DNA from: Acholoe squamosa
Lineage: Eukaryota; Annelida; Polychaeta; Phyllodocida; Polynoidae
Direction of reading: 5' to 3'
Assembly (NCBI GenBank): GCA_949317995.1
Contig: OX439042.1
Location: 13,867,174-13,931,173 of the forward strand
DNA: 64,000 bases
This document shows, piece after piece, positions 7,036-54,967 of the stretch. A program made the translations under genes and the position numbers. Below the pieces are notes generated by a model. The model had not been told where the DNA came from. It did not search any database and saw only the letters and a list, made by a program, of their open reading frames with translations. How positions within the stretch are numbered: position 1 is the first letter of the stretch; every line of letters begins with the position of its first letter.

Positions 7036-7077
7036 TAACCGGTTTGAGGGGCTCCTGGGCCTTTATTTACCAGTGAA

Positions 7078-8130
7078 ATGGGTAGAAAGGCTGCTAAAGG
7101 CTCGAAGGCCAATACACCAGGTGGAAAATCGGTTAAATCGGTGGAAAAGACGAAAAAATCGGCCAATTTAGGATTGACGAGTAGTTCGACTCTCTCACTT
7201 ACTGGTGATACACCATCTGATCCCCAAACTGCTACAGGTGTTGTGGGAGGGTCGTCTATTGACCAGACGAGGCTAGATGTATTAGAAGACGAGCTGTCGA
7301 CCATTAAATCGCTTCTACAAGAGGTCGTCAATGGAAAGGACGATCGGGATAGAGGATTCGTCAATGCGTCAAGTCGTTCGAGCAGAGCACGTGCGGATGT
7401 TTACAAACAGAGAGGTATGACGTCACGTAGTCAAGGACGCGGACCGGTTGCTAGGGCTACCCGCCAAGCGTCTCCATGCGAAATTTCGTCTGACGGTGAG
7501 GACGAGTGGGTGCAAGTTGATCACAAGCGACATAGATGATCATCTAAATCCAGTATTTCTGCTCGTCAATGCAGTCCAAGCACATCTAGAGGGTCGTCAT
7601 TGGATTCAGCTTATTCTAGGCATCGTCACCATGCAAAATCGGGTGAGTTTGATCATTCTCAGTTCACCAAACGTAAGGAAAAAATTGACACTATTGAGAA
7701 ACTGATGTCTGTAAACTTGCAGTTTATATTGAAGTACTACAAGTCAGGTGACGATGTTGAGGGTATGCTTAAGCATTTACAGGTATTAATTGAGAAGTCT
7801 GGTACCAAAATATACACTGTTTCAGCCCTGGTAGCCTATGATAAGTCAGTGAGGGACAGAGCTAATGATAGTGGAATAGAAGCTTTTTCAACCATTGAAA
7901 ATTCAGATATACTACGTCATTTGGCATATGATGGGACCGTTCAAGCCCAGAAAGCTTATAGTGCTAAACCTAAGAATGTAGGCAAACTGAGAGCTTCTAA
8001 TAACCCATGCTATGCCTTTAACAGAGCAGAAGGTTGTGTACGAGACCCATGTAAATACAAACATATCTGCAGTGGTTGCAACTCCTCAAGTCATGGTAAA
8101 GCTGACTGCCATAAGGCCAGGAGTGAATAG
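7078..8130 (+). CDS. Gag-like protein, interrupted by one in-frame TGA
   Basis: The ATG at 7078 opens a 350-codon frame ending at TAG 8128-8130, broken only at codon 154 (TGA, 7537-7539). The N-terminal half is Lys/Ser/Thr-rich with a short coiled-coil-like stretch (LDVLEDELSTIKSLLQEVV). The C-terminus has closely spaced Cys/His residues (CYAFN..GCV..PCKYKH, then CSGCN..HGKADC), the zinc-finger-like end usual in DIRS-order gag proteins, which package element RNA. The TGA fits a CpG-decay change of CGA to TGA, but that is inference. pol follows in the same frame, so the TAG is the only barrier between them. Alternatively the two halves could be separate products. Confidence 0.8.
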
Positions 8131-10140
8131 GAAACTGTAGGGGATCGGTGTCCCATAGCTTGTGATGAAATGTGTTTGATGCCTGACCAAGCTATGGTAA
8201 GTTCGGTAGATATCGACTCGCCCTCACAAACTCCAGTACAGGAGTTAATTGATACGGAGGTGGTTGAGGAGTGTGTTCCTTCAACTAATCTCCTAGCAGA
8301 ACAGGGTACTTTCAAAGAATTTATTTCGTTGGAAAATAATATAGATGTTATTGGTTATAGCCCAATACAGGTTGGTATTAATCCACTTTTTACTGTTAAT
8401 GTCACGGATTTACCTAGCATCAGGGTATATGACAAGTGTATAGAAGGTACATGTACGTGTGTTCATTACATTGGTGGTGAGAGAGCTCAAATTTTGCCAT
8501 GTAGGGTAGCTTCTTTCCTTCAGCAAAATGGTCTCATTAATATTAGTGGTACAGAGGCTGATTTTCTTTGGCATGGTATTGTTCAAGGGTTTAAAATTGT
8601 GGATCCGGGTTGCCAAACTACTTATGATTGCAGGAATTATAAGTCTATCCTCGAGGGAAAATTCTATAATGAATACTGTAGTATATTGTTAGATGAACTA
8701 GAAGCTGGTTTAGTCTCTAAAAGTGTAGATAAACCTCGTTGTATCCATGCCCTAGGTGGTGTAGAAAAATCTAATGGCAAGTTAAGACCCATAACTGACT
8801 GTAGTATGCCTGATAAAATATCTATTAATAATTTTATGGAGACTACTAGCTCGACATTTTCTTATAATAATATTAGCACGGTGACTGCTCAATTGAATAA
8901 GAATAATTATATGAGTGTGGTAGATTTAAAATCAGCGTACAGGTCTATAAATGTGTATGCACCTCACACGACCATGCAAGGTTTCAGATGGAATTTTGGG
9001 CATGGAGAGGATTATTATGTAAGCAACAGGTTAACTTTTGGCCTAAAATGTGCTCCATATATTTTTAATAAAATCTCAGATTTTATTGTGGAGGTGGCTA
9101 AATTCTACGGTGTAGAAAAAATTGTAAATTATCTAGACGACTTTATCATAATTGCTGATACTTATGATGAGTGTCTTAGACAGAGGAATTTGTTAATGGA
9201 GTGTATGACGTACATGGGTTTTGTAGTATCCAAAGAAAAGGTAACCGAACCTTCACAATTTTGCAAATTCTTAGGCATTAACATAGATTCAGTTAAGTTG
9301 GAACTGTCTTTGCCTATTGACAAAGTTGTTAAAATGGAAAGTCTCTTATTAGATAATGTTAATAAGAAATTTATTTCTAAAAAGAACTTAGAGAGAATAG
9401 GTGGTTTAATGTCTTTCTGCTCGCAGGTGGTTAAGGGTGGTAGAACCTTTAGTCGCAGAATTTTTGATCTTTGTGCCAGAGCAAGACCTAGAGGTACTAT
9501 AAGAATTTCTGAGTGTACAAGAAATGATATGGAATGGTGGTTAAAATTCTGCAATGCTTTTAATGGTAGAAGCTTAATCTTAAATGATCATTTCGATGCT
9601 CCTATGTATTCTGATTCATCCATGAAAGGCTTTGGGGCCTGGATGGGTAAAGATTATTTATATGGTGACTGGACATCCTTTGATAAATTCAGTCTAGGCA
9701 GTGGTCATTTTGCTCAACCACCTATACTAGATATGTTAAAAAATCACCATAGAAATATAAATGTATATGAGTTATATCCCCTTCTTATGGGTCTTAGATG
9801 TTGGATATCTGGCTGTAAAAATAAAAGAATACATTGCGTTACCGACAATATGCAAGTGTTAGCTATGATTAATACCGGTAGGTCAAAAAATAAGCTGTGT
9901 ATGGAATGGCTTAGAGAAATTTTTTGGCTTTGTTTTATCAACAATGTGGAGGTGTATGCAACCTATATTAAGTCAGAAGACAATGTCCTGGCCGACCGAC
10001 TATCTAGGCTTGCTTACAAGGGTATACGGGACAAATGTGTAAACTCTCTTCTTGAAAATGATATGTGTTGCTTTAATTCCAGAGTGGGAGAGATTACTAG
10101 GCAGAAAAAGGTTACTTTTAGCCCAGAGTGTGTCGGATAA
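8131..10140 (+). CDS. Pol: reverse transcriptase and RNase H
   Basis: The frame is open from directly after the gag TAG; the first ATG is at 8170 (656 aa from there). In that numbering RT has Asp252 (VVDLKSAY) and YLDD at 321-324, and RNase H has Asp482 (YSDSS), Glu534 (YELYPLL), Asp559 (VTDNM) and Asp609 (VLADRLSR), so all catalytic acids are present. Residues before about 150 are not recognised. The protein ends about 40 residues after the last RNase H Asp, with no methyltransferase domain. The protein would copy element RNA into DNA. Being in frame with gag behind a single TAG, it may be made by readthrough or by internal initiation. The last 83 nt overlap the recombinase frame. Confidence 0.93.
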   Translation, partial: ETVGDRCPIACDEMCLMPDQAMVSSVDIDSPSQTPVQELIDTEVVEECVPSTNLLAEQGTFKEFISLENNIDVIGYSPIQVGINPLFTVNVTDLPSIRVYDKCIEGTCTCVHYIGGERAQILPCRVASFLQQNGLINISGTEADFLWHGIVQGFKIVDPGCQTTYDCRNYKSILEGKFYNEYCSILLDELEAGLVSKSVDKPRCIHALGGVEKSNGKLRPITDCSMPDKISINNFMETTSSTFSYNNISTVTAQLNKNNYMSVVDLKSAYRSINVYAPHTTMQGFRWNFGHGEDYYVSNRLTFGLKCAPYIFNKISDFIVEVAKFYGVEKIVNYLDDFIIIADTYDECLRQRNLLMECMTYMGFVVSKEKVTEPSQFCKFLGINIDSVKLELSLPIDKVVKMESLLLDNVNKKFISKKNLERIGGLMSFCSQVVKGGRTFSRRIFDLCARARPRGTIRISECTRNDMEWWLKFCNAFNGRSLILNDHFDAPMYSDSSMKGFGAWMGKDYLYGDWTSFDKFSLGSGHFAQPPILDMLKNHHRNINVYELYPLLMGLRCWISGCKNKRIHCVTDNMQVLAMINTGRSKNKLCMEWLREIFWLCFINNVEVYATYIKSEDNVLADRLSRLAYKGIRDKCVNSLLENDMCCFNSRVGEITRQKKVTFSPECVG

Positions 10141-11005
10141 TACGAGGAGAGCAAGGAAACAACAGCTTAAAAGGTATAGGAAATTTTGTAAAAAATTTGA
10201 TTTACAATCTTTTCCTTGTTCCCCCTCTCAAGTTTCCATATATGCAGTTTACTTATCTGATTTCATGAAGCCATCATCTGTAAAAAATTATTTGTCTGCG
10301 GTTTGGTATTTTCAAAAAATTAAGGGCTATCCTGATTATAGTGGTAATTTCATGTTAAAGAAGACCCTTGATGGTATTGACAGGTTTTCTACCTGTTCAA
10401 CCAGAGTTATTCACCATTATTCTCCAAAAGACATGTTGAGGTTAAGGTCATTTTTGGACCTAACCAACATGGCAGACTTTAGATTTTGGATGGCAATTTT
10501 AACATGCTATAGGGGTGTGTTACGTGTGGGGCATGTAGTCGAGTCTCCACATTCCTTAAAGGTTGGTGATATTAATTTTCATCAGGATTATTTGTCTATG
10601 CGTATCAGAACATCCAAGACTGACCAGCTTGGTAAGAATGTGTTTAATATCTATTTGTCAAAGAATGTTAATTCTTCTTTATGTCCTTATCTAGGTCTGA
10701 AAAAGTTGTGCTGTGGTAGGGGTAGCAGGGAGTATCTGTTTAGTTCTAAGGTTAAGCCTCTTCAGTACCAGTATATCAACTCTAGGTTGAAGTCTTTATC
10801 CTTTCAAGCTGGTATCGAGGGGCGTGTCTCTACTCACTCCCTAAGGCACGGTGGTGCTACGTTATTAAAAGATGCTGGACTCAGTATAGAGTCTATCAAA
10901 AGGAGGGTTAATTGGAAATCTAACTCCGTTTTTAAGTACTTACATAATTACAAATTTGAACTATTGGAGTTAGATAGATTGTGTCAATCTCATTTGCAAT
11001 GTTGA
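10058..11005 (+). CDS. Tyrosine recombinase (integrase of the Ngaro element)
   Basis: 315 aa from the first ATG (10058), in a different frame from pol and overlapping it by 83 nt. Residues about 20-110 form the SAM-like core-binding domain (RRARKQQLKRYRKFC...SVKNYLSAVWYF). The catalytic domain has Arg156 (CYRGVLRVGHV), Lys187 (RTSKTDQ), the HSLR motif (His260-Arg263), Trp286, and a nucleophile Tyr294 or Tyr298 (FKYLHNY). The active-site set is complete. In DIRS-order elements this enzyme integrates a circular DNA copy by site-specific-type recombination. Initiation is not obvious and may depend on reinitiation after pol. Confidence 0.93.
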   Translation: MICVALIPEWERLLGRKRLLLAQSVSDNTRRARKQQLKRYRKFCKKFDLQSFPCSPSQVSIYAVYLSDFMKPSSVKNYLSAVWYFQKIKGYPDYSGNFMLKKTLDGIDRFSTCSTRVIHHYSPKDMLRLRSFLDLTNMADFRFWMAILTCYRGVLRVGHVVESPHSLKVGDINFHQDYLSMRIRTSKTDQLGKNVFNIYLSKNVNSSLCPYLGLKKLCCGRGSREYLFSSKVKPLQYQYINSRLKSLSFQAGIEGRVSTHSLRHGGATLLKDAGLSIESIKRRVNWKSNSVFKYLHNYKFELLELDRLCQSHLQC

Positions 11006-25156: not shown

Positions 25157-25389
25157 TTATTTAGGAAAATTGCCTTAGCCATGTTAGGAGGGAAGAGCAG
25201 TCATCGCATATAAATAGTGTAAAACCTTCCGAAGATAATATATACATATAGTGAAAAGAACTTTATGAGCAAGCCCACCTTGGCCCCATCTGGCAGCTCA
25301 GACATTAACCAGCTTGAGCCCACGCCAGGTCTAGTCCAGATGCCTAGAGGAATCCCAATTTAATAGAAGCCCCCAAGTAGTAGTCTCTG

Positions 25390-28212
25390 GTAATGGGTTG
25401 AAATACTTAACATTGAATGTCCATAGTTTAAAAGATAAGTACAACTATATTAGTAAAGATTCGCAAGGCTTTTCTTTAATTGGTATTACAGAGACATGGC
25501 TTAAACAATCAACCTTGAATGGTCAGCTTTACATGAATGGTATGAAACTAATTAGAATTGATCGCCGTAGAGGTAAACACGGTGGTGTAGCTTGTTATAT
25601 AAAAGATATGTATGTGCCTTATACAGAGATACTAGACGAGCTTACTACGGTTAGTAAGAATATTGAATGTCTATGTTTAAAAATCAGTTACCCCTGTCAC
25701 AAGTATAGACCTCCAAAGGGTAAAGTCACGGAATGTTATAACTTTTTGTCTGCATGTATGGGTTATGAGTCTGTAAGATACAAGGAGTGTTGGGTTATGG
25801 GAGATCTAAATATTAACAGCAGAGCACGTAACTGTATTAAGTTTAGAAGAATGACTAATTTTCTAAAAGCAACTGGATTGAGATATCTTTGCACAGCATC
25901 AACATAATATCACCCCCATGATAGATCCACCCCAGACCATTATTATACAAATTGTTAATGTATAAAACAATATGGCCTATTAGACAATATTTGCGGAGAT
26001 CATGTTCTGGCAGTATATTTTATACGGAAGAAAAAAAAATTGTAAAACCCCCATCTAGAGAGATTATATATAGATATATGAGAAAATCCTCCAAGCAGGA
26101 ATTTTTATATGCAATGGACAGTATAAATTGGAATGAATGTATAGGGGATGAATGCGGTGTAAGTATGATGTATAAATGTATAGTTAGAAATGTCCAATTG
26201 TCTCTGGATAATAAGCATCCTGCTGTAATATGCACAGTGAGAGATAATGATATTTCTTTTATGAAATTATATGTCGCTTGATCAGAATCAAAAAGAGACT
26301 TTTTAAAAAAGCAAAATGTGCAGGCCTCGAGTGGTAAATGTAGCCTTGACGAGAGCAAAACAAGTCCAGATAAATATAGATAAAAGGTTGGATACCAAAG
26401 GGAAGAATGTGACTACCAATCTTCTAAACAAGTACAAATAAGTTTGTGACATGTACTGGGAAAGGGGGCATTATTCCCCTTTGCACTAAGGGCCCTTTTC
26501 GCAGATATTGTCATTATGACCCCAGGAGGTTTTGGAAAGTCTTAAATAGTGTTTGGAAAGGGAGAAGCAGGACACCTGTAATGTGCTAAAAAGATGATAA
26601 TGGTAATGTGATAGATGCATTAGATACTGCCAACCTTGTTAATAATTACTATAAATTCAACTAGGTGCTGATCTGGCACGTTAGATGGAAAGTTCTGATT
26701 ATGTACAAAATGAAATAGGAATTGATAGTATTATGAGTTCAAGGGGACTTCCATAAACCAGTGTTCTAAAGTAATAAAGACCATAGCGGGTCATACGAGT
26801 TCATGTATTAAGGACATGCCTTGTAGTGTCATAAAGTGTCTTCCCTTATACAGGCCTATGTTGTTACAAAGTGTTGTAAATAAGTCCATCAATACCAGTA
26901 CATTACCTGATGTTATGAAACTTGCCGTTACCCAAAGATAGTGCCTTAGCGGACGTATCAAACTGGAGGCCTATAGCTATGACCGATATTTTGTCTCAAT
27001 TGATTGAAAAAAATATCCACTCGCAAATTTTTAGAAAAAGATACCATTAGTAAAAAACAATACGGTTTTATACCAGATAGGTCAACTGCTGATGTCACCT
27101 TCAAGTTAATACAGTATTTAATGCAAGCGAGAAATAGGGGTGAATTATCCCTGATGCTATTCTTAGATTTAAAGAAATCCTTTAACATGGTAAATTTGGA
27201 TATTCTAGTTAGTAAATTACAAAGTATTGGATGTGATAATGTCTAATGTCTGTATAAACTGGTAAAAAAAGTTTGATAAAGAAATTGTTCTATATGCAGA
27301 TCATGTGGCCTTAGTGTTGAATGGTAAAAATCAATGTCAAGAAAACTAAAGTACTTTGGTGTCATCCTAATAGACGATGTATTGTCAAACATGACATATT
27401 ACTAAACAACAGCAAGTAGGCTTGTGTGGAGCATTTTAATGGACTTTGATTTAAATTGTAAAGTACACAGTAAAAAGGTTGATTCCCAAGGTACAGCTAG
27501 ATTGAAACAGTTAAGGAATATTGTAAAATACCTAGACAACAAGTTAAGTTTATAGATATACAAAACAATGATTGCACCGTTATTGGAATAATGTAGTTAT
27601 ATTCTAGAGAGTGGTCCAGCTACATTAGTTGATCACCTAGATACATTACAAAACCAATGTTTAAGAGCATGTGAAAAAATAGAGATCCACAAGATATTCA
27701 TGTAAACGATCTATTGATGTTGTGTAATGTTGATACATTAGCTACGCCTAGAAAAAGGGTACTACCATGTGTGATGTATAAATGTGTACAACATAATAAG
27801 AACACGGTTATCCCGGTAATACCTCTTGGAGGTAACGACAAGATAAAAATCAAAGTAAGTAGACCAAGACTCGAATCATACAGACACAGTCCTCTGTATA
27901 GAGGTAACATTGTCTGGGAACTATTAACAGTAAATGTGCAGCTAAGTAAGAATATGCAAGTACTCAAGAAGAATTTATATGGAATGTTGTTATAACCTGG
28001 GCAATGAAATGCTGAGATGAATAAGAATTGTACTGTTTACAGGATGTTGTACTTTGAATCAACTAGTTCATGAAAATCATTTGTGATAAATTGAATGTTA
28101 ACTTCATATGACTGCATTGTGTCGAATTATTCATTAACTGGCTGATGGCTGTAAAAGCTCCAATACGATGTGAAATTATTGGCCAATAAACATGTTTAAA
28201 AACTCAAACTCA
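25390..28212 (+). pseudogene. Dead LINE: endonuclease and reverse transcriptase remnants
   Basis: An endonuclease-like frame at 25398-25907 (LTLNVHSLKDK, GITETWL, MGDLNIN) corresponds to the N-terminus of ORF2 at 32307. Further pieces follow in several frames: 26500-26570, RT at 27004-27246 (KKQYGFIPDRST, LFLDLKKSFNMVN), and C-terminal matches to about 27967. Frameshifts and deletions are many, and where the catalytic YADD should be (about 27290-27310) the sequence reads YADH. The 3' end, CCAATAAACATG followed by AAACTCAAACTC, matches the end of the LINE at 35450-35488, so the two are one family. No ORF1 remnant was seen upstream. Confidence 0.88.
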
Positions 28213-28780
28213 TTAAAATATAGGGATGGGCTTTAGTGTGTTTAGCGGTTATGCGGTTGTGGCGTCAGTCCAGTAGCGCACGGCAATGCGGCTCCCCCAT
28301 ATTTCGGATTTATAGCTGTTTAAACTGACTGAATGGTACTCTCTTGGGACTACCATACCATGAACACCCTTGGAACCTATGGGTATGTAAAATTGAACTG
28401 ATTTTGCTTTTGTTCAGCCACATTTTGTGATTGAAAGCAAGTCACCACTTCATGGTCCAGTGAGCAAGCTCAGGTGTGTTTATACTGCACCTACCCATAC
28501 CTGTACATAGCAACTGGGTAAACACTGTAGTGTGTCAGTGCTGTAGTGTGTCAGTGTGTCAGTGCTGTGTTGGCCTAATATATACTGTGACTGAATGGTA
28601 CTCTCTACTACACACTGAAGGAGCTAAACACTCAGTGATCATTGATACTGCATAAACTGGGTATGTAAAGTGTGTTTTAGTACCTATTGGAGGAGATTCA
28701 TTGTCTTAGTTCTACTGAAGTTAGACCCACACAGGTAGAGTCCCTAGTGACTGTTGCTAGGCCAAGGTAAACATTCTACC

Positions 28781-30850
28781 ATGCCCTATAAGGTGGATAG
28801 TAGACGTGGGGGCAGGCAATTCAACCCTCACCACTCTCACAACATGTCTCACCGTAATGGATATCAGGACTTGGAGGAAGACCAGTGGCCTGCACCATTT
28901 AGTAAGCCTGACATGAGACATAAGGTCAGTGATTCAAGGAAAAGGGAGAGGCAGTCAAGTGATGAGTCCTCACCAACATCAGGTAGCTATGTTAGCTCAT
29001 ATAACGCACAGAAGCTGCTTCCTAAGAAAAGCTATCGCCCAAGTAATTCATTGTCAAATCACCCCAATCCAGATAGGCGATCTCTACCTACATCAGCGCA
29101 ACCACATGACAAATCAAGCACAGTAGGTGAATCGGCAATGGAGAATCACTTAAAAGAGATAAAAGAAATGATCTCAAGGAGTGACGTGAATATTTCTGGT
29201 GAAATTCAAAACCTACGTCAACGTATGGATATTGAGAAGATGGGGTATGAACAGCGTTTTGATGACCTAGAAAGAAACCAAGACGAGGGAATTAGGGCTA
29301 CAATGCATGAAGTGGACAAACTGAGAAATCAATTTGCACAGAGTCAACAACAGGTAAATATACTTGAATCAGAGCTGAGAGAAACAATTAGGAAACTGTC
29401 ATATGCTGGTGTTGCTGACCCAGATACTGATTCCCGTTTTCACTCACCTCGTCGATTTAATATAATTATCGATGGACTCGATGAGGACATAAAAGGTGAT
29501 GCATATGATCATGCACTCTACTTACTTATGGACATTGGTATTGAACTTGACCCTAGTGAATTAAAGTTCGTAACACGCATGAACACATCATCTCCCAACC
29601 AGAAATGCAGACCTATACTTGTATGTTTCACCACTGCATGGAGGCGTGATGTTTGCCTAAAATACAAGTCTGAGCTTGACAGTATTGACAAGTATAAAAA
29701 GAAGGTATTTATCAATGCTGATGAAGATCCCACCACCAGAAGGGTCAAAGGAATTGTGAGGAAGATAGGATGGTATTGTAGAGAGGTGGTGAAGTGTGAG
29801 GTAACCATGAAAGGCACTCGCATATTGATTGAAGGAGTGCTTTATGATGGGCACAATCCACACAGGATCCCTGACAGGTATAAACCCGATGATCTGCATT
29901 ATGAGAATTTGGATAGGCAAGACTACAGAAGTGATGAGGTAAATCATCGTGGGAGAGACATCATTCGAGTGGGGGCTCGTAATAGATGGGATAACACAAG
30001 TGATGATAGAATGGTAAAGGATCTGACTAAAAGATACCGGCCACATGATTCACATGACAGACGACTTGATAAACATGTATCCCATAATGGCAATGGCAGT
30101 AACGAAGTAAGAAGACCTCAAAAGCAACCGACTAGAGAGAAAAAAGGCGATCGCAATTCAAATAGTTATGTTCACCGAGACCGCTCCCGTGACAACATTG
30201 GGCATAAGCCTTATACCCATTCAAGGGAACGCCATCAGCAAGACGGGAGCATCACACAGAGCCACCACCTAGTGGATAAGAAGAATACTAGCAGTCAGGA
30301 GAGAGGAAATCGAGACAAGTCGCCATCTGGAGGATCATCCGAGAATTGGTGGAGACTAAGCCCTAAGCCCGATAGTTATAGACACGCCCATGATGATGAA
30401 AATTCATCTCTAAAGCAGAAGGAAAAAGAGAAGAGTCAACCTTCAGTGAAGTCAACCTTCAAAGAGAGATTAAATATAGCCATAGAACGAGCTGAAGGAG
30501 GTGAATTATGTCAACGTCTGACGAATTCAGGAATGACATTCTGTGGCGCCAAATGCTTCCTAAGTAATCTCTATCCCTGCCATATTCATCACGATGGGGT
30601 AGATTTTCATAGTTCGGAGCAACTATACCAGTGGATAAAGTGCTGTGAGCATAATGACCCAACTCGAGCTGATCAAGTATTAGACACAATCACCGGCCTA
30701 GAGGCTAAAAGAGCCACACATGGCATGAGAGAATCCGAAGAGTGGAAGAGCTCTACACGTCTAACTGCAATGAGAATTGCTGTATCTAAAAAATTCGTCC
30801 AAGATAAAGAGTTAAAAAGGCAGCTGATAACTCTGGGGATGTCGATATAA
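28781..30850 (+). CDS. LINE ORF1 protein: coiled coil, RRM-like domain and C-terminal NADAR domain
   Basis: 689 aa from the first ATG (28781). The N-terminus is basic and Ser-rich. A coiled coil spans about residues 118-208. Residues about 223-357 resemble the RRM/CTD region of LINE ORF1 RNA-binding proteins (FNIIIDGLDED, RPILVCFTTAWRRDVCLKYK, KVFINADEDPTTRR, VLYDG). A long Arg/His/Asp-rich linker follows (about 365-570). From about 580 the sequence matches the NADAR (YbiA-like) fold: FCGAKCFLSNLYPC, DGVDFHSSEQLYQWIKC, KRATHG, then MRIAVSKKFVQDKELK. The last conserved NADAR segment (SGD..IIEAT, WGG, TGKNNLGRLL) lies in the -1 frame after about 30832. NADAR proteins are linked to ADP-ribose/NAD metabolites and to removing ADP-ribose from nucleic acid; a role here is inference. 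Confidence 0.8.
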   Translation: MPYKVDSRRGGRQFNPHHSHNMSHRNGYQDLEEDQWPAPFSKPDMRHKVSDSRKRERQSSDESSPTSGSYVSSYNAQKLLPKKSYRPSNSLSNHPNPDRRSLPTSAQPHDKSSTVGESAMENHLKEIKEMISRSDVNISGEIQNLRQRMDIEKMGYEQRFDDLERNQDEGIRATMHEVDKLRNQFAQSQQQVNILESELRETIRKLSYAGVADPDTDSRFHSPRRFNIIIDGLDEDIKGDAYDHALYLLMDIGIELDPSELKFVTRMNTSSPNQKCRPILVCFTTAWRRDVCLKYKSELDSIDKYKKKVFINADEDPTTRRVKGIVRKIGWYCREVVKCEVTMKGTRILIEGVLYDGHNPHRIPDRYKPDDLHYENLDRQDYRSDEVNHRGRDIIRVGARNRWDNTSDDRMVKDLTKRYRPHDSHDRRLDKHVSHNGNGSNEVRRPQKQPTREKKGDRNSNSYVHRDRSRDNIGHKPYTHSRERHQQDGSITQSHHLVDKKNTSSQERGNRDKSPSGGSSENWWRLSPKPDSYRHAHDDENSSLKQKEKEKSQPSVKSTFKERLNIAIERAEGGELCQRLTNSGMTFCGAKCFLSNLYPCHIHHDGVDFHSSEQLYQWIKCCEHNDPTRADQVLDTITGLEAKRATHGMRESEEWKSSTRLTAMRIAVSKKFVQDKELKRQLITLGMSI

Positions 30851-31155
30851 TCGAAGCCACGATGGAGGATTATTGGGGAGGCTTTGGACGTTATGGTGAT
30901 CCAGTCTATGACACCGGATTGTACACAGGCAAAAACAATCTGGGCAGACTGTTAACTGATCTTCGCATACGCCTCACCAACAAAGAACGAATGAAAGGCA
31001 GCGCTGGAAAGCATGCTAAAGATGCGATGGAGAGCGAGGCTGCCGCTGACGCGCTACTCGAAAGTGAGGACTCTGATATTCTAGCAGATGATACGGACAA
31101 CGCTGAATCCTCCGTCGAGCATATCTATGAAGTTGACAAAGATCAACGACAGTAA
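30833..31155 (+). CDS. Frameshifted C-terminal end of the ORF1 NADAR domain plus acidic tail
   Basis: In the frame one base behind ORF1, codons from about 30833 give SGDVDIIEA, DYWGGFG and TGKNNLGRLLTDLR, the closing motifs of a NADAR domain, so the domain spans both frames. A single lost base near 30832 is the simplest explanation; no canonical slippery heptamer is evident, so programmed frameshifting is less likely. The remaining residues form an Ala/Glu/Asp-rich tail (AMESEAAADALLESEDSD) ending at the stop at 31155. No separate start of its own is needed; the first ATG in this frame (30862) would miss part of the fold. Confidence 0.7.
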
Positions 31156-32306
31156 GTCTTATGACCTACTGCCACCACTTGTGAATTCATATACAGTATG
31201 ACAGTTGAGATCTACCATCATGATCTCTATCTTATGCATCATGTGTTGTGAATACATGACATACTATGGTGTCTCTTCATGGAAGTACGAGATGCTGTTT
31301 TTGACCTATGTGACTATTACCTGTATCAATGTCCTGGAGCTGTGAAAACAACTTTAAAATGGTTTCAGCCAACCAAACAGAGTCCAGACAGCTAAGACAT
31401 TTCCATTGTTTCGCACACTTCTTTAATTACAATACATCAGTTCTTCAAGTGATGTCATTAGATATCTAAGAAACTATTTTATACCGTTATTGAATTTAAA
31501 TTCCTAGCAACAGATTTTTTCTGAATTTCTTCGAGAAGTTAATTCATTACCCTACTTATAGATACATGACCCTATAAACTTTAATTTTGCACTGTCTTAT
31601 TAAAACATCATTTAATATGAATTGTTTCTTCCAGGATTATAGTTTGTTATCTTACATAGTACGATTATCTTATAGTTAAGGCAGTGTTTATCATTATTAT
31701 ATGAATTTTACTAGTATGACAGGGGGAGCCTACCCAACAGAGTTACCGACCGAGTATTTCTATCTGGATTGCCCAATTGTTTTGTTAAGTACCCTTAAGG
31801 CCAAGTTAAATTGTGCAGAGTATATCCCTGGGGTTTATATCTACTGGTTCCTGCACTGAAATTAATTTTCGGTAATTTGAGTAGCTGATGCAACTTTGAA
31901 TTAACTGATTGATATACAATTTGATAGGTGAAATTATTTTGTTTGATTCATTCCCGATACATGTATTGATATAGTTATCTTTAAGTGATTGTGTTGTCCT
32001 GTTTGACCTTTTCTGACTGCAATGTAAATTGTTAGTCTGTTAGTTTAAGTATACCTCCAGCTTTTGTTACTGTGGGGACTGTATCTTGCACATAGAGCCA
32101 CTACTTTACTTATTCGTAACGGGTTGCTCTTGGCTTCTTGGCCCTCATCATTGCATTGAGTGCCATTAGTCGCTCCTATTGCACATTTCTCTGTAAATCA
32201 TGTTCTGTCTGTTGTGCGCTCGATTAGGTATGTTTACTTTTGTTCTGAAAGGTAGGAGCAACAGGGTCAGGTTGAAAGCGACCTATATCACTAATGCTTC
32301 TTAAGT
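31156..32306. other. Long non-coding spacer between LINE ORF1 and ORF2
   Basis: No open frame of note. An in-frame TAA (32292-32294) sits five codons before the ORF2 ATG, so ORF2 must start at 32307 or use reinitiation. The length is large for a LINE inter-ORF spacer; it might hold a 5' UTR-like or internal promoter region, or mean ORF1 and ORF2 derive from different insertions. Confidence 0.5.
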
Positions 32307-35174
32307 ATGACTAGCCACTACTCTTGTGACAAAATCAATAGCTTGAAGGGACTGAAACTAATTACTATGAATGTACAAAGTCTCAATGATAAGGTTTTGG
32401 ACTTACGTCGCTCCGATCTTGGTTTTGATTACATCTGCGTGACGGAGACCTGGTTAGACAGACGTGATCAAACTCATAATGTCGATTTGAATAATATGAG
32501 ACTGTATAGGAAGGATCGCCTAAATTGCCTTAGGAAGAGTGGTGGAGTAGGTTGTTATGTTAATAATAAGTATGTAGATTACACTTTCGGCCATGCAGCA
32601 TTAACAGTAGGCAATAAAGACATAGAATGTATTGGATTAATAACTAAATTTCCAAATCAGAAGCACCGTGTGATATTGTCTGTATACCGCCCCCCTAATG
32701 GTAATGTAAGGTTATGTTATAAAAAATTGAGTGAAATGTTAAAGCATCCAGACATTCGCAGGATGGAGGTCTGGATCCTTGGGGATTTTAATGTTAATTC
32801 TGCAGTTAGAACAAGTAGTAAATATAAAAGTCTAACATCTTTTTTAAGGAAAAACAAGTTGAAATATTTACGTACTAGATCAACGTATTATCATACCAGG
32901 GGCAAATCTACTTTGGACCATATTTATTGTAACTCTCCGCATATTTCCACAAATGGTCTGCTTGACTACAAATTTGGTGATCATTTCCCTGTATTTGCTA
33001 TAAAGAAACAAAGAAGAATAGAGAGGTGTCAAACTCGTTCAATTACTGGTAGATCATATAAGAATTTTGATCAAAATGCTTTGAATAATTATGTGAATAA
33101 TGCTGCCCTCACTGAAAACCATACGCTTTCTCCAGGTGAACTTTATAGTGAATTTGTAAATTGCATCCGTGTGTACCTGGATAGACATCACCCAGTTAAG
33201 GAAATGGCCATTAATATGGATGCACCTACTGGTTTTAATCAGAATCTGGCTTTTTTGACTGCTAAGAAAAAAAGATTTCTTAAGAAACTCCGGGGTTACA
33301 GAGGTCAGGATGCTAATCCATTCAGAGCCAAAATTAGAGACCTGGACAAACAAATAAAAAACAAGCTGGTCTTGAACAGACAAAAAGAGATAACCAGGAA
33401 TCTTAATAAATACAAAACTGACCCAAGGCGTTTTTGGAATGTAATAAGTAGTTTATGGAAGGGACCTCGCACTGAGATAAAAATGTCATTAATAAATGAG
33501 CATGGTACTGGCATCCCTGACCTTGAGATTCCTGACTTTGTAAATAAATATTATACTTGTATTGGTCCTAACCTTGCGAATCTGATACCAGTTGTCAGTA
33601 ACACCGACCATCGATGGATTACTGACCTTATACTTTCCCATGTCCCTGAACGTGACCAATTGTTTGAATTGTTGCCTATTGATTTATTAACCTGCACTGA
33701 TATTATTAACGGTATCAACTCTGTAAAATCATCAAGTATTCAACACATCAGAGCAAATGTGGTGAAAAACGTGTTGTTACATATCCCACATATACTACTT
33801 CAAATAATTAATGGTTCAATCACTAATAGTGTCATACCGGAGATGTTCAAAATAGCTAATGTAATTCCGTTGCCAAAGTCAGGCGATTTGCTGAATATCT
33901 CAAACTGGCGCCCAGTGAGTCAACTCAATATTGTCTCGAAACTAATTGAGAAATCAATCCACCGCCAGTTAATTAGGTATTTACTGGATAATGATTTTAT
34001 ATCTAAAAGACAGTTTGGCTTTGTTCCAGGTAGATCTACTAATGGTGCTATTTATATTTTGACTCAAGATTTATTTGAAGGATTTAACAGGGGGGAGTGC
34101 TCGGCTGTAGTCTTCCTAGATCTGAGAAAGGCTTTTGATACTGTCGACCACTCCCTCCTCCTAGGAAGGCTTAGGAATTTGCATTTATCTGTACAGTGTG
34201 TATCTTGGTTTAATTCTTATCTTAAGGACAGAAAGCAATATGCTACTGCCAATGGGCGTGTATCTGCTGAAGAGGCTGTAACGTGTGGCGTCCCGCAAGG
34301 GTCCGTGTTAGGCCCGTTATTATTTATAATATATATTGATAGTATAGTATCGGTTATAAAATCCTGCAAATTCTGTTTGTACGCCGATGATCTCGCTATT
34401 TATGTCAATGATACCGACCCCAATCATGTACTAAGGAAATTACAGTCTGATCTGGATAGTATCAGTAAATGGTGTAAATTGTTCAAGCTTACTATCAATA
34501 ATGAAAAAACAAAGTTGTTATGGTGTGCAAGTGATTTACTTAATGCCAGACACAATTTGAGTATAATGAGTGCTGAACTGGATGGTAAGCGCCTTGAAGT
34601 GGTTGATGAATTCAATTACCTTGGTGTTATCATTGATCGTGGTCTTAATTTTCGGAGAAACAACGAAAAGATAATATCTAGTTTCCGCCACAAGATGTAC
34701 CAATTAAGACAGTTAAGGAAATTTGTCGATAATAAGCTGTGTCTGACCTTATACAAACAAATGGTTCTACCTGTGCTGGAACATGCAAGTTTTCTACATG
34801 AAAGTGGTCCTAAATCCAGTGTTGGCCGCTTACAACTTATGCAGAATCATTGCCTACGGTTATGTCTTCGAATCTTTAATACTCGAGATATATCTATATA
34901 CGATCTCCATGTTAGAACCTACATGAAAATGCTAAAGGTTAGACGTGATAAGAACTTATTATCTATGATGTATGATGTTTCTTGTGATCCAAACTGTGTC
35001 AAACTCCCTGCCAGGAACTTGCGCGGCAATGTTAAAAAACAGTTAAAGGTATCCAGATCCAGGTGTTTGACGTATGATAAGTCACCACTGTACAGGGGGT
35101 GTGTCCTTTGGGACAAATTGGATGCAAATACTCAGCAGATAGGCAGTAAGAAAGAATTCATAAACAAAATCTGA
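32307..35174 (+). CDS. LINE ORF2: AP-endonuclease-like nuclease and reverse transcriptase
   Basis: 955 aa, uninterrupted. The endonuclease domain (about 1-235) shows Asn22 (TMNVQSL), Glu47 (VTETWL), GDFNVN with Asp160 and Asn162, and GDHFP with Asp225 and His226, the usual catalytic set of APE-type LINE nucleases. RT (about 500-770) shows RPVSQLN, FGFVPGRST, VFLDLRKAFDTVDH, CGVPQGSVLGPLLF and YADD (692-695). The C-terminus ends in the LINE pattern LYRGCVLWD. It nicks target DNA and primes reverse transcription from the 3' hydroxyl (TPRT). The start is the first ATG after an in-frame stop. Catalytic residues are intact, so it may be active if expressed. Confidence 0.93.
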   Translation: MTSHYSCDKINSLKGLKLITMNVQSLNDKVLDLRRSDLGFDYICVTETWLDRRDQTHNVDLNNMRLYRKDRLNCLRKSGGVGCYVNNKYVDYTFGHAALTVGNKDIECIGLITKFPNQKHRVILSVYRPPNGNVRLCYKKLSEMLKHPDIRRMEVWILGDFNVNSAVRTSSKYKSLTSFLRKNKLKYLRTRSTYYHTRGKSTLDHIYCNSPHISTNGLLDYKFGDHFPVFAIKKQRRIERCQTRSITGRSYKNFDQNALNNYVNNAALTENHTLSPGELYSEFVNCIRVYLDRHHPVKEMAINMDAPTGFNQNLAFLTAKKKRFLKKLRGYRGQDANPFRAKIRDLDKQIKNKLVLNRQKEITRNLNKYKTDPRRFWNVISSLWKGPRTEIKMSLINEHGTGIPDLEIPDFVNKYYTCIGPNLANLIPVVSNTDHRWITDLILSHVPERDQLFELLPIDLLTCTDIINGINSVKSSSIQHIRANVVKNVLLHIPHILLQIINGSITNSVIPEMFKIANVIPLPKSGDLLNISNWRPVSQLNIVSKLIEKSIHRQLIRYLLDNDFISKRQFGFVPGRSTNGAIYILTQDLFEGFNRGECSAVVFLDLRKAFDTVDHSLLLGRLRNLHLSVQCVSWFNSYLKDRKQYATANGRVSAEEAVTCGVPQGSVLGPLLFIIYIDSIVSVIKSCKFCLYADDLAIYVNDTDPNHVLRKLQSDLDSISKWCKLFKLTINNEKTKLLWCASDLLNARHNLSIMSAELDGKRLEVVDEFNYLGVIIDRGLNFRRNNEKIISSFRHKMYQLRQLRKFVDNKLCLTLYKQMVLPVLEHASFLHESGPKSSVGRLQLMQNHCLRLCLRIFNTRDISIYDLHVRTYMKMLKVRRDKNLLSMMYDVSCDPNCVKLPARNLRGNVKKQLKVSRSRCLTYDKSPLYRGCVLWDKLDANTQQIGSKKEFINKI

Positions 35175-35449
35175 ATGTATTTGGTGTATAACGGTCACTT
35201 GATAGACTACGCAATTATTTTTGAAAGATGTGATATACATGCTGCCTGCGGATAATCGACTTGTGCAAATCATGGTGATACATACAGCCCCTAAGAGGCT
35301 TTAGTTATGTCTTTAGTAATATCGTAATGATCTACACCCAAAATGATGCCTGCCTGATGTAACTTTGTACAACCTGATTGAGCGCTACACTATTTCTTTC
35401 CTGTTGCCGTGTTTTGGCCGATCTGAAAAACGTACATGTATGATTTCTG

Positions 35450-35488
35450 CCAATAAACTTGTTAAAACTCAAAACTCAAACTCAAACT
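35450..35488 (+). terminator. LINE 3' end: AATAAA signal and AAACTC repeat tail
   Basis: AATAAA at 35452-35457, then AAAACTCAAAACTCAAACTC. The dead LINE ends the same way at 28185-28212, which defines a family 3' end with a simple-repeat tail instead of poly-A. Confidence 0.75.
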
Positions 35489-37061: not shown

Positions 37062-37975
37062 ATAATTTTTGTTTTGAATTCACTTTATTTGCCTAAATAT
37101 ATACTTCATGGTACACTGATAGCGGTAGAGACAATATTATTGATAGTCACAAGTATTCCAAGGTAAATATACAAATGTTCAGGTTTTTTAACAAGAAACG
37201 AGTGAAGGACAATAATATTATAATATAGGTTTCAAATGAGACAAAAAAGAAGGCAGAGGACCTCATCCCCACAATAGTGTTTGGGTTGGTACTTCTGGTC
37301 CTACCTGACTTATAGATAATGTTTGAAACTTATGACACTTTAATATAAAGATACAAATGGAGTAGAAACAATATACATAGGGGGGGTAAATCTAGAAATC
37401 AAAAATATCAGTAACAATGGGCCTTATTGCAATGGATAATTCACATACACACACATCATAATAGTAGTTGATTAATCCTTATCATAGGGCATAGGGCAGT
37501 AACCTTTTCATAAAAGTAATTGTATCACTTTTAAATTTGGCAATTTCTGGGGTATTTCTTCGATCCCTTGATAAGGAATTCCAGGCAATGGCACCATGGA
37601 ATTCAACACTCCTAGCATACGATAGACAATTTGGGGTAATACATTTGACAGTAGGAGCATCATGTAGACGAGTAATTAAATTTCTCTTATCTCTATACAT
37701 GTCACATCTCGATCTATTGTACATATAATTTAGTAGATGGGCATCTCTTCTTTCCTCCAGCATATTTACTCCAGTGGTATTGTGCACATATTTTGTGTTA
37801 GTTAATGTGGAACTTTTAGACAAATTTTAAACATATATTTTGAGCATATTGAAGAGGGTCCAAATACTTATCATAGGTTGACATGAAGCAGATGTCTGCA
37901 TATTCCACATAGGGTAGAATAGTAGATTTATATATTTGAATTGCCAGTTTGAATAATTTAATCATTTAAAAATAC
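37062..37975 (-). pseudogene. 5'-truncated LINE 3' fragment
   Basis: The minus strand from about 37975 encodes LAIQIYKSTILPYVEYAD, DPLQYAQN, then after a break the 113-codon frame 37823-37482 with YNRSRCDMYRDKR, ITRLHD and GAIAWNSLSRDRR, the typical C-terminus of LINE RT proteins. An AATAAA followed by an A-rich end lies near 37062-37090. The break at about 37824 is a stop or frameshift. The family differs from the LINEs at 25-35 kb, and its 3' tail is different. Confidence 0.8.
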
Positions 37976-43590: not shown

Positions 43591-43624
43591 TAAATTCCTT
43601 CAATGAGCACCCCGTCCAGTAACT

Positions 43625-45244
43625 ATGGCTGGATGTGTGGAGGAAGTGAAATACGCGATGAGAGTGTCGTCTCTCAAGGGCCTCCCCAGAATAATAGCAG
43701 CACGCAACCATCTGGACAGGACCATATGGACAGTGGCCGTGATCAGCTTTTTCTGTGTCTGTATGATAACTGTATATTCAAACATTGCTGAATATCTTTC
43801 CTATCCCAAAATTGTTAATGTCGAAGAGAAACTCATCATTCCAGATGATCCAAATGGCACAGTGCCATATCCAACAATTGCGATATGTAACACAAATCCA
43901 TTTAGTAGCAGTAAATCAGACTTTGAGGAGAAAAACATACCATTCCCAAAGGATTACCACAGGAAGGTTGAGGAGATGACATCATGCGAAGATTGTTCTG
44001 AAGAGAAAGCAATATTTTCGAGTGTCATCAGAAAAATGCTAATGACTAACCGTGGATATTATCAATCTGCAGGAATGGAGGCCATGATAAAAATGAAAAA
44101 CCCTGACCTGGTACTGGATTGTTCTGTTATCATAATGTCTGGGTCATTTTTCATGGCATACCCATGTGAAGACTACAGCAACAACCATACATTTGTACAC
44201 CCAGATGTTGGTGTATGCTATGCTTATGAAGCTCGACCAGTGCCAAAAAACTTGCAAATAGTTGGATACCGTTTTATGGTTCATCTGGATAATTCGGATG
44301 ACAATTTAAACACTGAATTCAATCCAAGCTTTATTCCCCAGCCTCGCTCAGGTGCAATTATTTATACATATGACCCATATGTAAAACCAAACATATTAGG
44401 TGCAAATGCAGTTATAGCTCCTGGTATGGCAACTACACTTTACTTGAAGATAATGCGGACTGACAGACTCTCAATACCCTACTCTGAGAGGGAATGTATA
44501 AAAGAGGATCATCATAAAAACTTTTATGACAATAAGCAGTATAATTATGGTTATTTAAATTGTCTAGGAGAATGCACCTTACAGAATAGCATTGAGCATT
44601 GTAATTGCACTGACTTATTTGTACTTCAGAATCCTGAGTATAAACCTCCAAGCTATGAGTATTGTTCTTCATTACACCAATCTGTCGATGAACTATTCGC
44701 AAAGATGAAGTGTGCAGAAGAGATAAAGATGCCAGGATATCTCAAATGTATTCAAAAGTGTAAGGAACCCTGCAAGGAGATAAAGTATGTTATGAGATCA
44801 ACTGTTGCCAAATGGCCACTGCCATCACAAATAGGCTCCTTCTACAACAGTGTGATTCTGAATAATACAAATCTTTATAACAATTATAAAGAATTTCAGG
44901 CAACAGCAAAAGCTATAGCAGCTGGGGATCCCAATGTCTCACCTAAGGACAGCTCACTTATAGCAAAAGCGATTGAGGACAATTTTGGTCTCGTTGTTAT
45001 TTACCTTGCTGATTTGTATTACACGCACTATGAGTCAAAACCAAAATTCACATTTGATGCTTTAATTTCCGAGCTGGGCGGTTCATTGAACTTGTGGTCT
45101 GGCATTACAGTTATGATTTCTGTGGAAATAATTGACATTTTAGTCAAGGTTTTGTGTCATTTTCTAGGAACAGGAGTAAGAAGAACCTCTACAACAAATG
45201 ATCCAGAGGTTGAATTGAATGACACTAAAGCCCAGATGACATGA
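43625..45244 (+). CDS. DEG/ENaC (ASIC-like) sodium channel subunit, intronless coding region
   Basis: 539 aa in one exon. The cytoplasmic N-terminus has VSSLKGLPRI; TM1 spans about 34-54 (WTVAVISFFCVCMITVY). The extracellular domain has PYPTIAICNTNPF and, near residues 305-390, the family cysteine pattern (CLGECTLQ, HCNC, CIQKCKEPCKEIKY, then STVAKWP). TM2 begins ELGGSLNLWSG (about 483-493) and continues ITVMISVEIIDILVKVL; a short polar tail follows. DEG/ENaC subunits form trimeric cation channels at the plasma membrane, gated by protons, peptides or force; the stimulus here is unknown. The residues at the selectivity-filter position read Gly-Ile-Thr (493-495) where the family usually has Gly/Ser-X-Ser, and the pre-TM1 His-Gly motif is Lys-Gly. 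The second copy at the left edge is about 86% identical over the first 102 residues. Confidence 0.95.
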   Translation: MAGCVEEVKYAMRVSSLKGLPRIIAARNHLDRTIWTVAVISFFCVCMITVYSNIAEYLSYPKIVNVEEKLIIPDDPNGTVPYPTIAICNTNPFSSSKSDFEEKNIPFPKDYHRKVEEMTSCEDCSEEKAIFSSVIRKMLMTNRGYYQSAGMEAMIKMKNPDLVLDCSVIIMSGSFFMAYPCEDYSNNHTFVHPDVGVCYAYEARPVPKNLQIVGYRFMVHLDNSDDNLNTEFNPSFIPQPRSGAIIYTYDPYVKPNILGANAVIAPGMATTLYLKIMRTDRLSIPYSERECIKEDHHKNFYDNKQYNYGYLNCLGECTLQNSIEHCNCTDLFVLQNPEYKPPSYEYCSSLHQSVDELFAKMKCAEEIKMPGYLKCIQKCKEPCKEIKYVMRSTVAKWPLPSQIGSFYNSVILNNTNLYNNYKEFQATAKAIAAGDPNVSPKDSSLIAKAIEDNFGLVVIYLADLYYTHYESKPKFTFDALISELGGSLNLWSGITVMISVEIIDILVKVLCHFLGTGVRRTSTTNDPEVELNDTKAQMT

Positions 45245-49033: not shown

Positions 49034-49084
49034 TAATGGAGTTTTTCCTATTTTTGTGATGTACAGGCAAAAGCACCAGGCACA

Positions 49085-51060
49085 GTACATCACATTATGT
49101 CTCATGTACATCACATGTATGTCACACAATGTCCCTGTATGTCACATGTACGTCACACTATGTCCCTGTACGTCACATGTACGTCACACTATGTCCCTGT
49201 ACGTCACATGTACGTCACACTATGTCCCTGTACGTCACATGTACGTCACACTATGTCCCTGTACGTCACATGTACATCACACTATGTCCGTGTACGTCAC
49301 ATGTACATCACACTATGTCCCTGTACATCACATGTACGTCACACAATGTCCCTGTACGTCACATGTACGTCACACTATGTCCCTGTACATCACATGTACA
49401 TCACACTATGTCCCTGTACGTCACATGTACGTCACACTATGTCCCTGTACGTCACATGTACATCACACTATGTCCGTGTACGTCACATGTACATCACACT
49501 ATGTCCCTGTACATCACATGTACGTCACACAATGTCCCTGTACATCACATGTACGTCACACTATGTCCCTGTACGTCACATGTACGTCACACTATGTCCC
49601 TGTACGTCACATGTACATCACACTATGTCCGTGTACGTCACATGTACATCACACTATGTCCCTGTACATCACATGTACGTCACACAATGTCCCTGTACGT
49701 CACATGTACGTCACACTATGTCCCTGTACATCACATGTACATCACACTATGTCCCTGTACGTCACATGTACGTCACACTATGCCCCTGTACGTCACATGT
49801 ACATCACACTATGTCCGTGTACGTCACATGTACATCACACTATGTCCCTGTACATCACATGTACGTCACATAATGTCCCTGTACGTCACATGTACATCAC
49901 ACTATGTCCCTGTACGTCACATGTATGTCACACTATGTCCCTGTACGTCACATGTACATCACACTATGTCCCTGTACGTCACACTATGTCCCTGTACGTC
50001 ACATGTATGTCACATGGTCCCTGTACGTCACACTATGTCCCTGTACGTCACATGTACGTCACACTATGTCCCTGTACTTCACATGTACGTCACACTATGT
50101 CCCTGTACGTCACATGTATGTCACACGGTCCCTGTACGTCACACTATGTCCCTGTACGTCACATGTACGTCACACTATGTCCCTGTACTTCACATGTACG
50201 TCACACTATGTCCCTGTACGTCACATGTACATCACACTATGTCCCTGTACATCACATGTACGTCACACAATGTCCCTGTACGTCACATGTACGTCACACT
50301 ATGTCCCTGTACATCACAGGTACATCACACTATGTCCCTGTCCGTCACATGTACGTCACACTATGTCCCTGTATGTCACATGTACATCACACTATGTCCG
50401 TGTACGTCACATGTACATCACACTATGTCCCTGTACATCACATGTACATCACACAATGTCCCTGTACGTCACATGTACGTCACACTATGTCCCTGTACAT
50501 CACTTGTACATCACACTATGTCCGTGTACGTCACATGTACATCACACTATGTCCCTGTACATCACATGTACATCACACAATGTCCCTGTACGTCACATGT
50601 ACGTCACACTATGTCCCTGTACATCACATGTACATCACACTATGTCCGTGTACGTCACATGTACATCACACTATGTCCGTGTACGTCACATGTACGTCAC
50701 ACTATGTCCCTGTACATCACATGTACATCACACAATGTCCCTGTACGTCACATGTATGTCACACTATGTCCCTGTACATTACATGTACTTCACATGTACG
50801 TCACACTATGTCCCTGTACATCACATGTATATCACACAATGTCTATGTATGTCACATGTACGTCACACTATGTCCCTGTACGTCACATGTACATCACACT
50901 TTGTCCCTGTACTTCACATGTACGTCACACTATGACCCTGTACGTCACATGTACGTCACACCATGTCCCTGTACGTCACATGTACGTCACACTATGTCCC
51001 TGTATGTCACAGTATGTCCCTGTACATTATCTGTGTGTTCCTGCACGTCAGAGTGTGTTC
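49085..51060. repeat. 31 bp satellite, left arm (about 60 units)
   Basis: The unit combines TACGTCACATGTACGTCA with CACTATGTCCCTG; main variants are TACATCA and GTCCGTG. Because 31 is 1 mod 3 and the unit has no stop in any frame, all three forward frames stay open for hundreds of codons and give one 31-residue peptide repeat in different phase. I therefore do not call the resulting 746- or 665-codon frames genes. Confidence 0.95.
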
Positions 51061-54000: not shown

Positions 54001-54967
54001 CCCTGGTACACTCCTTGTTCACCTCCTGTACACTCCCAGTCCCTCCCTGCACACTCCCTGTACATGCCCTGTACACTCCCAGTCTCTCCCTGCACAGTCC
54101 CTGTACACTCCCAGTACATCACTGCTACACTGCCTGGAATACTCCCTGGTACACTCCCTGTATGCTCCCTTCACCTCTCTGTGCACTACCATACCTCCCT
54201 GTACACTCCCTGTACTTCCCTGTACACTCCCTAAACACTCCCTGTATGCTTCTTTTAACTTCCTCTACACTCCTTGTACCTCCCTGGTACACTCCCTGTA
54301 CCTACTTGTTTCTCCCTATACACTGCCTGTACCTCCCTGTGCACTGCCTGTACCTCTCAGCACACTCACGATCCCTCCCTGTAGACTCCCTGTGCACTGC
54401 CTGTACCTCCCTGTAACTCTCAGCACACTCACAATCCCTCCCTGTAGACTCCCTGTAGACTCCCTGCCTCTTCCAGTACACTCCCTGTACATTCCCTGTA
54501 CCTTCCTTTACAGAGCTTTTGCAATCCTCCCTGTTACATGCCCTGTACACTCCCTGTCCTTCCCTGGTTCACTCCCTGTACATGCCCTGTACACTCCCAG
54601 TACATCACTGTACACTGCCTGGAATACACCCTGTACACTCCCTGTACTTCCCTGGTACACTCCCTGTATGCTCCCTTTACCTCTCTGTCCACTACCATAC
54701 CTCCCTGTACCTCCCTGTTACACTGCCTGTACCTCCCTGTACACTCCCTGTGCCTCCCTGTACACTCCTCGACCTCCCTGTACCTCCCTGGGACACTCCC
54801 TCGACCTCCCTGGTACACTGCCTGTACCTCCCTGTACACTCCCTGTATTTCCCTGTACACTCCCTAAACACTCCCTGTACCTTCCTTTACAGACCTTTTG
54901 CAATCCTCCCTGTTACATGCCCTGTACACTCCCTGTTCTTCCCTGGTACACTCCTTGTTCACCTCCT
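51061..54967. repeat. CTCCCTGTA satellite, left arm
   Basis: Irregular 10-11 bp units (ACTCCCTGTAC, CTCCCTGTAC, CTCCCTGTATG) with longer higher-order blocks; for example GGCAGTGAGGGGG and TCAAATAGTCAGGGCCAGTC recur at about 52265 and 53100. Pro/Leu/Tyr/Thr-rich open frames here are artefacts. Confidence 0.93.

Follow-up and report, generated by a model that had tools for sequence, protein, structure and literature searches.

A LINE with a NADAR domain in ORF1

We analysed a 64,000-nucleotide stretch of the genome of the polychaete Acholoe squamosa (contig OX439042.1, positions 13,867,174 to 13,931,173; hereafter the window), which contains a near full-length long interspersed nuclear element (LINE) whose first open reading frame (ORF1) carries a NADAR domain (Table 1). 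The ATG of ORF1 is codon 11 of its open frame, and ORF2 matches RVT_1 (E=3.8e-39) and Exo_endo_phos_2 (E=8.4e-8). Together with the PF08719 matches, these results bear out a preliminary description of the locus as a LINE ORF1 fused to NADAR and adjoining an ORF2 with an apurinic/apyrimidinic endonuclease (APE). The PF08719 profile is divided between two frames, with the second part lying in frame 30808–31152, indicating a complete NADAR that is broken by a frameshift in the window copy. We are nearly certain of the overall architecture, in which the ORF1 of a LINE consists of a predicted coiled coil, a core resembling an RRM and a charged linker, with NADAR at the C-terminus.

Table 1 Features of the NADAR-bearing LINE in the window, and of an additional ORF in related elements
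Feature	Position	Strand	Basis
Near full-length LINE, about 7.24 kb	28251..35488	+	Alignment of 12/12 family copies
5′ untranslated region	28251..28780	+	Where family copies begin
ORF1, in-frame part, 689 amino acids (aa) in window copy	28781..30847	+	
Predicted long helix / coiled coil of ORF1	29177..29404	+	AlphaFold2, single sequence
RRM/C-terminal domain (CTD)-like LINE ORF1 core, by resemblance only	29435..29896	+	Alignment with other LINE ORF1s
NADAR, first part	30551..30832	+	PF08719 E=5.9e-9, profile 10–113
NADAR, second part, other frame in window copy	30832..30975	+	PF08719 E=8.5e-4, profile 114–162
Inter-ORF region	31156..32306	+	
ORF2, 955 aa: APE-type endonuclease and reverse transcriptase (RT)	32307..35174	+	Pfam
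3′ end with short (AAACTC)n-like tail	35455..35488	+	
Middle GDSL/SGNH-motif ORF of related elements	L033 3747–4421; L034 3770–4480; L035 and L036 3759–4436	Element orientation	

The fusion is shared by dispersed, largely intact copies

All LINE copies and related loci described here (numbered L0xx) come from one 1.48-Gb genome. A genome search with the window ORF1 returned at least 67 matches (65 of 2,741 candidates scored). Besides the window copy, at least 24 copies cover nearly all of ORF1 at 97–100% identity, and 13 of these 24 retain a stop-free 801-aa frame. We fetched 12 family copies and 8 diverged loci in full. In every one of the 12 family copies the ORF1–NADAR frame is joined to ORF2, and the 12 can be aligned at 98.3–99.7% nucleotide identity over the 5′ region, ORF1, the spacer, ORF2 and the tail. 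In window coordinates the copies share an end at 35478–35484 (12/12) and mostly a start at 28245–28260 (8/12), with later starts at 28328, 28549, 28555 and 28729 in the other four, and the DNA that flanks them is not alike. An APE and an RT in ORF2, dispersed copies and a common 3′ end together identify an APE-type LINE. The target duplication that borders copy L022 measures at least 27 bp (by eye about 40); in the remaining 11 copies the flanks share no repeat, or one of at most 7 bp.

Coding capacity is preserved in most fetched copies: ORF1 is open at 801 aa in ten (798 and 768 in the other two) and ORF2 at 959 aa in ten. NADAR occupies a single frame in all 12, none of which shares the frameshift of the window copy. 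In the intact copy L031 the domain matches PF08719 over its whole length (E=9.9e-19, 68.6 bits against a curated cut-off of 35.1, profile 10–162); it has the NADAR fold, and it lies within the same ORF as the ORF1 core, as in Tx1-type elements of oyster. The preliminary description had allowed that the NADAR match might prove insignificant or the juxtaposition accidental; recurrence in many genomic copies, together with the PF08719 match, removes both doubts.

Purifying selection on the NADAR domain

For analysis of selection we compared two subfamilies of five copies each, leaving out the two of the 12 copies with shortened frames. ORF1 contains 26 fixed codon differences between the subfamilies, 18 of them synonymous. 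All six that fall in NADAR are synonymous, giving the lowest pN/pS within ORF1 (0.01), compared with 0.06 for the coiled coil and RRM region, 0.10 for the C-terminal tail, 0.40 for the linker and 0.71 for the N-terminus; values for whole ORF1 and ORF2 are 0.17 and 0.11. The neutral probability of six synonymous differences out of six is 1e-4 to 6e-4, depending on the transition bias assumed, and Fisher's test of NADAR against the N-terminus and linker gives p=0.038. These counts are small, yet they are consistent with the alignment of distant families. The substitution pattern thus indicates that the NADAR amino acids are under purifying selection in the focal family, and the element very probably needs the domain. 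Recurrence and apparent conservation of the fusion suggest that it probably aids copying of the element.

Class of the element and the ORF1 core

The focal ORF2 is not L1/Tx1-like: against chain 8C8J of LINE-1 ORF2p it reaches 49 bits, compared with 50 to R2 and 56 to a group II intron RT. An L1/Tx1-type ORF2 from the same genome, that of L043, scores 265 bits to 8C8J and 354 to 8SXT. By sequence comparison the focal element lies outside the L1/Tx1 superfamily. RT and C-terminal motifs point to CR1/L2; no CCHC motif was found in the focal element, and its 3′ tail is microsatellite-like. On motifs, lack of CCHC and tail, membership of the CR1/L2 (Jockey) superfamily is the most likely assignment. 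Of the 7,999 proteins scored in a protein-database search with ORF2, 1,805 reached E≤0.001, the best 47% identical; these proteins are unlabelled, and neither the search nor a 12-row alignment yields a clade name. Protein-database searches with ORF1, or with the NADAR pieces joined by X, gave no scoring match, and no relative was found in viral contigs (ORF2 and ORF1 queries) or genome contigs (ORF1 query). ORF2 matched 60 plasmid records; all of the 20 listed are less than 32% identical and many bear the name group II intron RT. A control search with the joined NADAR query returned 496 phage records at E≤1; among those listed the best has E=2e-11 at about 30% identity, and some are annotated as NADAR family protein.

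Comparison with the Type II ORF1 architecture (coiled coil–RRM–CTD) gives a mixed picture of the ORF1 core. AlphaFold2, run on the ORF1 part as a single sequence, predicts a helix over residues 4–79 of 261 with pLDDT near 90 in most blocks, and the heptad test of this helix gives 0.07. The core can be aligned with the ORF1s of seven other LINE copies at 20–64% identity, a similarity that extends across LINE types. Pfam and PDB searches gave no RRM match, so that of the two ORF1 domains predicted beforehand the NADAR was confirmed by a significant PF08719 match and the RRM was not.

ORF1–NADAR fusions in related and distant LINEs

ORF1s that are 36–50% identical to the focal one continue through NADAR at several loci (PF08719 E=5.9e-22 in L036 and 4.2e-20 in L034), and the ORF2s of L033, L034 and L035 are 45–48% identical to the focal ORF2. 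L033, L034, L035 and L036 carry an extra ORF of 225–237 aa between ORF1 and ORF2. In L033, L035 and L036 it begins straight after the ORF1 stop in the same frame, suggesting readthrough or re-initiation. This middle ORF resembles GDSL lipases, above the cut-off in L033 (E=2.3e-8) and below it in L035 (E=1.5e-3); a PDB search with the L033 ORF gave no esterase match. Esterase relics are present in L037 and L038 and weak in L039, and none was found in the spacer of four focal copies out of four at E≤1.

Searching the genome with PF08719, we scored 150 of 3,224 candidates, and all 150 exceeded the cut-off. Among the loci that passed, two host-type frames and L041, L042, L043 and L044 were examined individually. 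Each of these four LINE loci has an ORF1-type frame with NADAR followed by ORF2 or its start, the endonuclease of L041 and L044 being recognized by similarity to focal ORF2. The fusion therefore occurs in the five ORF1 types examined in this genome: the focal type, the Tx1/L1 type of L043 and three others. ORF1 searches gave at least 83 matches for L043, 58 for L041, 94 for L044 and 68 for L042. For L043, 31 of 83 rows cover residues 1–530 with an identity of at least 96%. In the L041 search 23 of 58 rows, though only 23–41% identical, are stop-free and extend over the core together with all or most of NADAR, so that many distinct ORF1 families share the core–NADAR order.

Individual loci show further variation. 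L042 encodes a 757-aa ORF (874–3144) in which NADAR is followed by an SGNH-like stretch, recognized by eye and by a weak SASA match (E=0.07), and the ORF2 after it has a different type of RT. The 240-aa middle ORF of L041 (3302–4021) matches NarE, an ADP-ribosyltransferase, at E=0.0011; this match is below the cut-off and we do not believe it, a derived esterase-like ORF being more likely. Standalone YbiA-like NADAR frames occur at L045 (555–1220, minus strand) and L046 (344–1084, minus strand); at 183 and 168 bits they are the top two PF08719 matches of the genome, and they are 63% identical to each other.

Origin of the LINE NADAR domains

We built a tree from the NADARs of 11 LINE rows, 2 host frames, 14 bacterial sequences (12 from genomes, 2 from plasmids) and 3 phage sequences. 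In this tree the focal group forms one clade with L033, L034, L035, L037 and L039 (support 99/98), which L041 joins (92/92). L042, L044 and the Tx1-type L043 fall apart from it, several on long branches; L042 stands next to two phage rows (90/85) and L043 inside a bacterial and host group (88/91), both on long branches. The tree needs three changes, although one LINE clade is not rejected (approximately unbiased test, p-AU 0.166), so that one capture and several are both compatible with the tree. Both host-type frames, L045 and L046, fall within the bacterial NADARs and are probable host genes. A clade uniting LINE and host NADARs is rejected (p-AU 0.020), demonstrating that these two host frames were not the recent source of the LINE domains.

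The same data bear on whether the domain might be a host gene fragment that lies by chance beside a dead LINE, or a pseudogene. The frameshift within the window NADAR speaks for such an accident. At least 24 further near-full copies, the same joint in 12 of 12 fetched family copies, purifying selection, recurrence of the fusion in other LINE types, and the rejected clade with the host-type frames speak against it, and we give the idea practically no credence; a host-gene-fragment origin is ruled out by copies, selection and tree.

Active-site residues and catalytic competence

We aligned active-site residues in 11 LINE rows (10 distinct), 14 bacterial rows and 2 host rows. All 11 LINE rows retain the equivalents of E43, W89 and E125 together with the asparagine of GxN; the K50 position holds lysine in ten and arginine in one, and W133 is kept in ten. 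The focal rows have glutamate at both the E43 and E125 positions and lysine at K50, and by a separate alignment the residue opposite R93 is arginine in the focal copy. Glutamate at 125 marks the YbiA subfamily (PMC11543638). In the E. coli C7 NADAR, hydrolysis of guanine-linked ADP-ribose depends on the counterpart of K50 and on the aspartate that occupies the E125 position, and a K-to-R change retains activity in vitro (PMC11543638). Conserved catalytic residues and purifying selection make an enzymatic role plausible, and we consider the LINE NADAR probably catalytically active.

Several observations weigh against an active enzyme directed at the known substrate. Arginine at R79, which touches the ADP-ribose pyrophosphate in the solved enzyme (PMC11543638), is found in 0 of 11 LINE rows (lysine in L044), compared with 13 of the 14 bacterial rows and both host rows; the focal rows have histidine and thus lack this contact. 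D130 is aspartate in only 7 of 11 LINE rows, with glutamate in both focal rows, asparagine in L033 and histidine in L044. Loss of R79 and variability at D130 suggest that the substrate may differ from that of known NADARs. In C7 NADAR, moreover, the K-to-R change failed to rescue in cells, the sequence-conserved glutamate is dispensable and E88A, at the E43 equivalent, has only a minor effect in vitro (PMC11543638), so that conserved residues are no proof of activity. The frameshift in the window copy itself and the unconfirmed RRM count on the same side. Judged by these residues, the LINE NADAR is probably an active enzyme with altered substrate contacts.

The differences at R79 and D130 would also suit a non-catalytic domain that binds a nucleotide or an ADP-ribosylated target, whether protein or nucleic acid, and guides the ribonucleoprotein particle (RNP) for insertion to sites such as chromatin that is damaged or carries PARP marks; recruitment of further modules, PHD for example, is common among ORF1s (PMC4120745). 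Invariance of both key glutamates in 11 of 11 rows and retention of lysine or arginine at K50 exceed what a pure reader would need, and we regard such a binder as unlikely.

A proposed role in clearing adducts from element nucleic acid

LINE ORF1 protein (ORF1p) binds element RNA and travels with it. By coating that RNA, ORF1p would carry NADAR into the RNP, where the domain could hydrolyse ADP-ribose (or NAD-derived) adducts that are joined by an N-glycosidic bond to bases in element RNA or nascent cDNA; their removal would preserve a readable template and dampen the responses of host ADP-ribosyltransferases. That an ADP-ribose-type adduct on nucleic acid is the substrate is a tentative proposal. 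An active ORF1p NADAR that clears such adducts from element RNA or cDNA is nonetheless the explanation that we find best overall, and we offer it with reserve, its activity and substrate being inferred. A precedent is the proposal that animal RNA viruses acquired Macro and NADAR domains to counter ADP-ribose adducts of the host (PMC9503650). A wider version, in which NADAR is a general module of animal LINEs for counter-defence or template repair, an ORF1-borne enzyme spread among LINE superfamilies by ORF1 exchange or repeated capture and partly paired with an SGNH/GDSL hydrolase, seems doubtful to us; if it is true, some animals would use nucleic-acid ADP-ribosylation against retrotransposons.

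NADAR might instead serve RNA metabolism, processing or stabilizing the element transcript, for example by removal of an NAD-type cap, with no part in defence. The nematode protein SNA-3, which has three NADARs, is essential for SL1 trans-splicing and is inactivated by changes to NADAR residues (PMC9303266), and RNA processing has been suggested for transposable-element NADARs (PMC12477816). Cap removal by a NADAR is not reported in the available text of the NADAR literature examined, and the present data do not separate an RNA-metabolism role from adduct removal; we consider it rather unlikely. A YbiA-like N-glycosidase of small molecules (riboflavin-pathway intermediates or other metabolites) attached to ORF1 is very improbable, a soluble target being odd for a domain fused to ORF1 in several LINE types.

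Other features of the window

An older, decayed LINE lies upstream of the focal element (25335–28212; ORF2 pieces 35–53% identical) and ends in a tail of the same kind (about 28182–28212), and a C-terminal fragment of a related LINE ORF2 lies at 37530–37950 on the minus strand (E=4.7e-8). A further retroelement (7048–11002), which we take to be DIRS/Ngaro-like, contains an RT (8131–10137) and a phage-integrase-type tyrosine recombinase (10043–11002). The window also holds an uninterrupted 545-aa frame for an amiloride-sensitive sodium channel (43607–45241; ASC, E=1.3e-57) and a 12-kb minisatellite block (49081–61407) with units of 31-bp and 11-bp types arranged as an inverted pair, in which GC skew changes from −0.58 to +0.52 near 55 kb.

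Comparison with known systems

NADARs reverse guanine ADP-ribosylation in bacterial systems, and the physiological role of eukaryotic and animal NADARs is unclear (PMC11125620). In the genome analysed here NADAR is retained in many LINE families, with selection indicated for the focal one, and a single enzyme module is found across very different ORF1 types, widening the known modularity of ORF1 (PHD, esterase). ORF1–NADAR proteins permit a direct test of whether nucleic-acid ADP-ribosylation or an NAD-linked mark strikes animal retrotransposons, and whether the elements reverse it.

The combination of NADAR and ORF1, of which the preliminary description knew no example, has already been noted in the oyster Crassostrea gigas, where several families of Tx1 LINEs have a YbiA-family NADAR in their ORF1 (PMC12477816, Genome Biol 2025). 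Like the focal element, these are animal LINEs with NADAR in ORF1; they belong to the L1 superfamily, to which the focal ORF2 shows only the 49-bit match, and the focal element, not being of L1/Tx1 type, differs from that report. The available text of the report makes a single remark on them and gives no analysis of selection, copies or active site. The same source places NADAR at the N-terminus of Pol in Gypsy retrotransposons of the brown alga Ectocarpus (PMC12477816), likewise retroelements with NADAR but long-terminal-repeat elements with the domain in a different protein. Among the papers examined on NADAR, YbiA or DUF1768 and retroelements, which included few subscription papers, only this work reports NADAR in retroelements; a paper on gastropod LINEs (PMC11203168) does not contain it. 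Within the reach of these searches, three observations are new: NADAR, with evidence of selection, in a LINE that is not L1; the occurrence of the domain across several LINE types within a single genome; and the adjoining GDSL-like ORF.

Outside retroelements, YbiA and the DarT-associated and oomycete NADARs (2B3W, 8BAU; PMC11543638) share the domain and the E43, K50 and E125 equivalents, but are standalone or part of toxin–antitoxin systems, with R79 in 8BAU at a position that is not arginine in LINE NADARs. SNA-3 (PMC9303266) is likewise an animal NADAR protein, but a host trans-splicing factor and not a retroelement. A further parallel comes from Jockey-superfamily LINEs, which resemble the focal system in their two ORFs, APE and modular, shuffled ORF1 with an esterase module: a survey of 448 elements defines ORF1 types I–V with the esterase in type IV, and its main text does not contain the word NADAR (PMC4120745). 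Esterase is limited to vertebrate groups in that survey, though earlier work cited there places it in diverse phyla (PMC4120745). Unlike the elements described in the survey, relatives of the focal element in the present genome carry the GDSL-like ORF between a NADAR-bearing ORF1 and ORF2.
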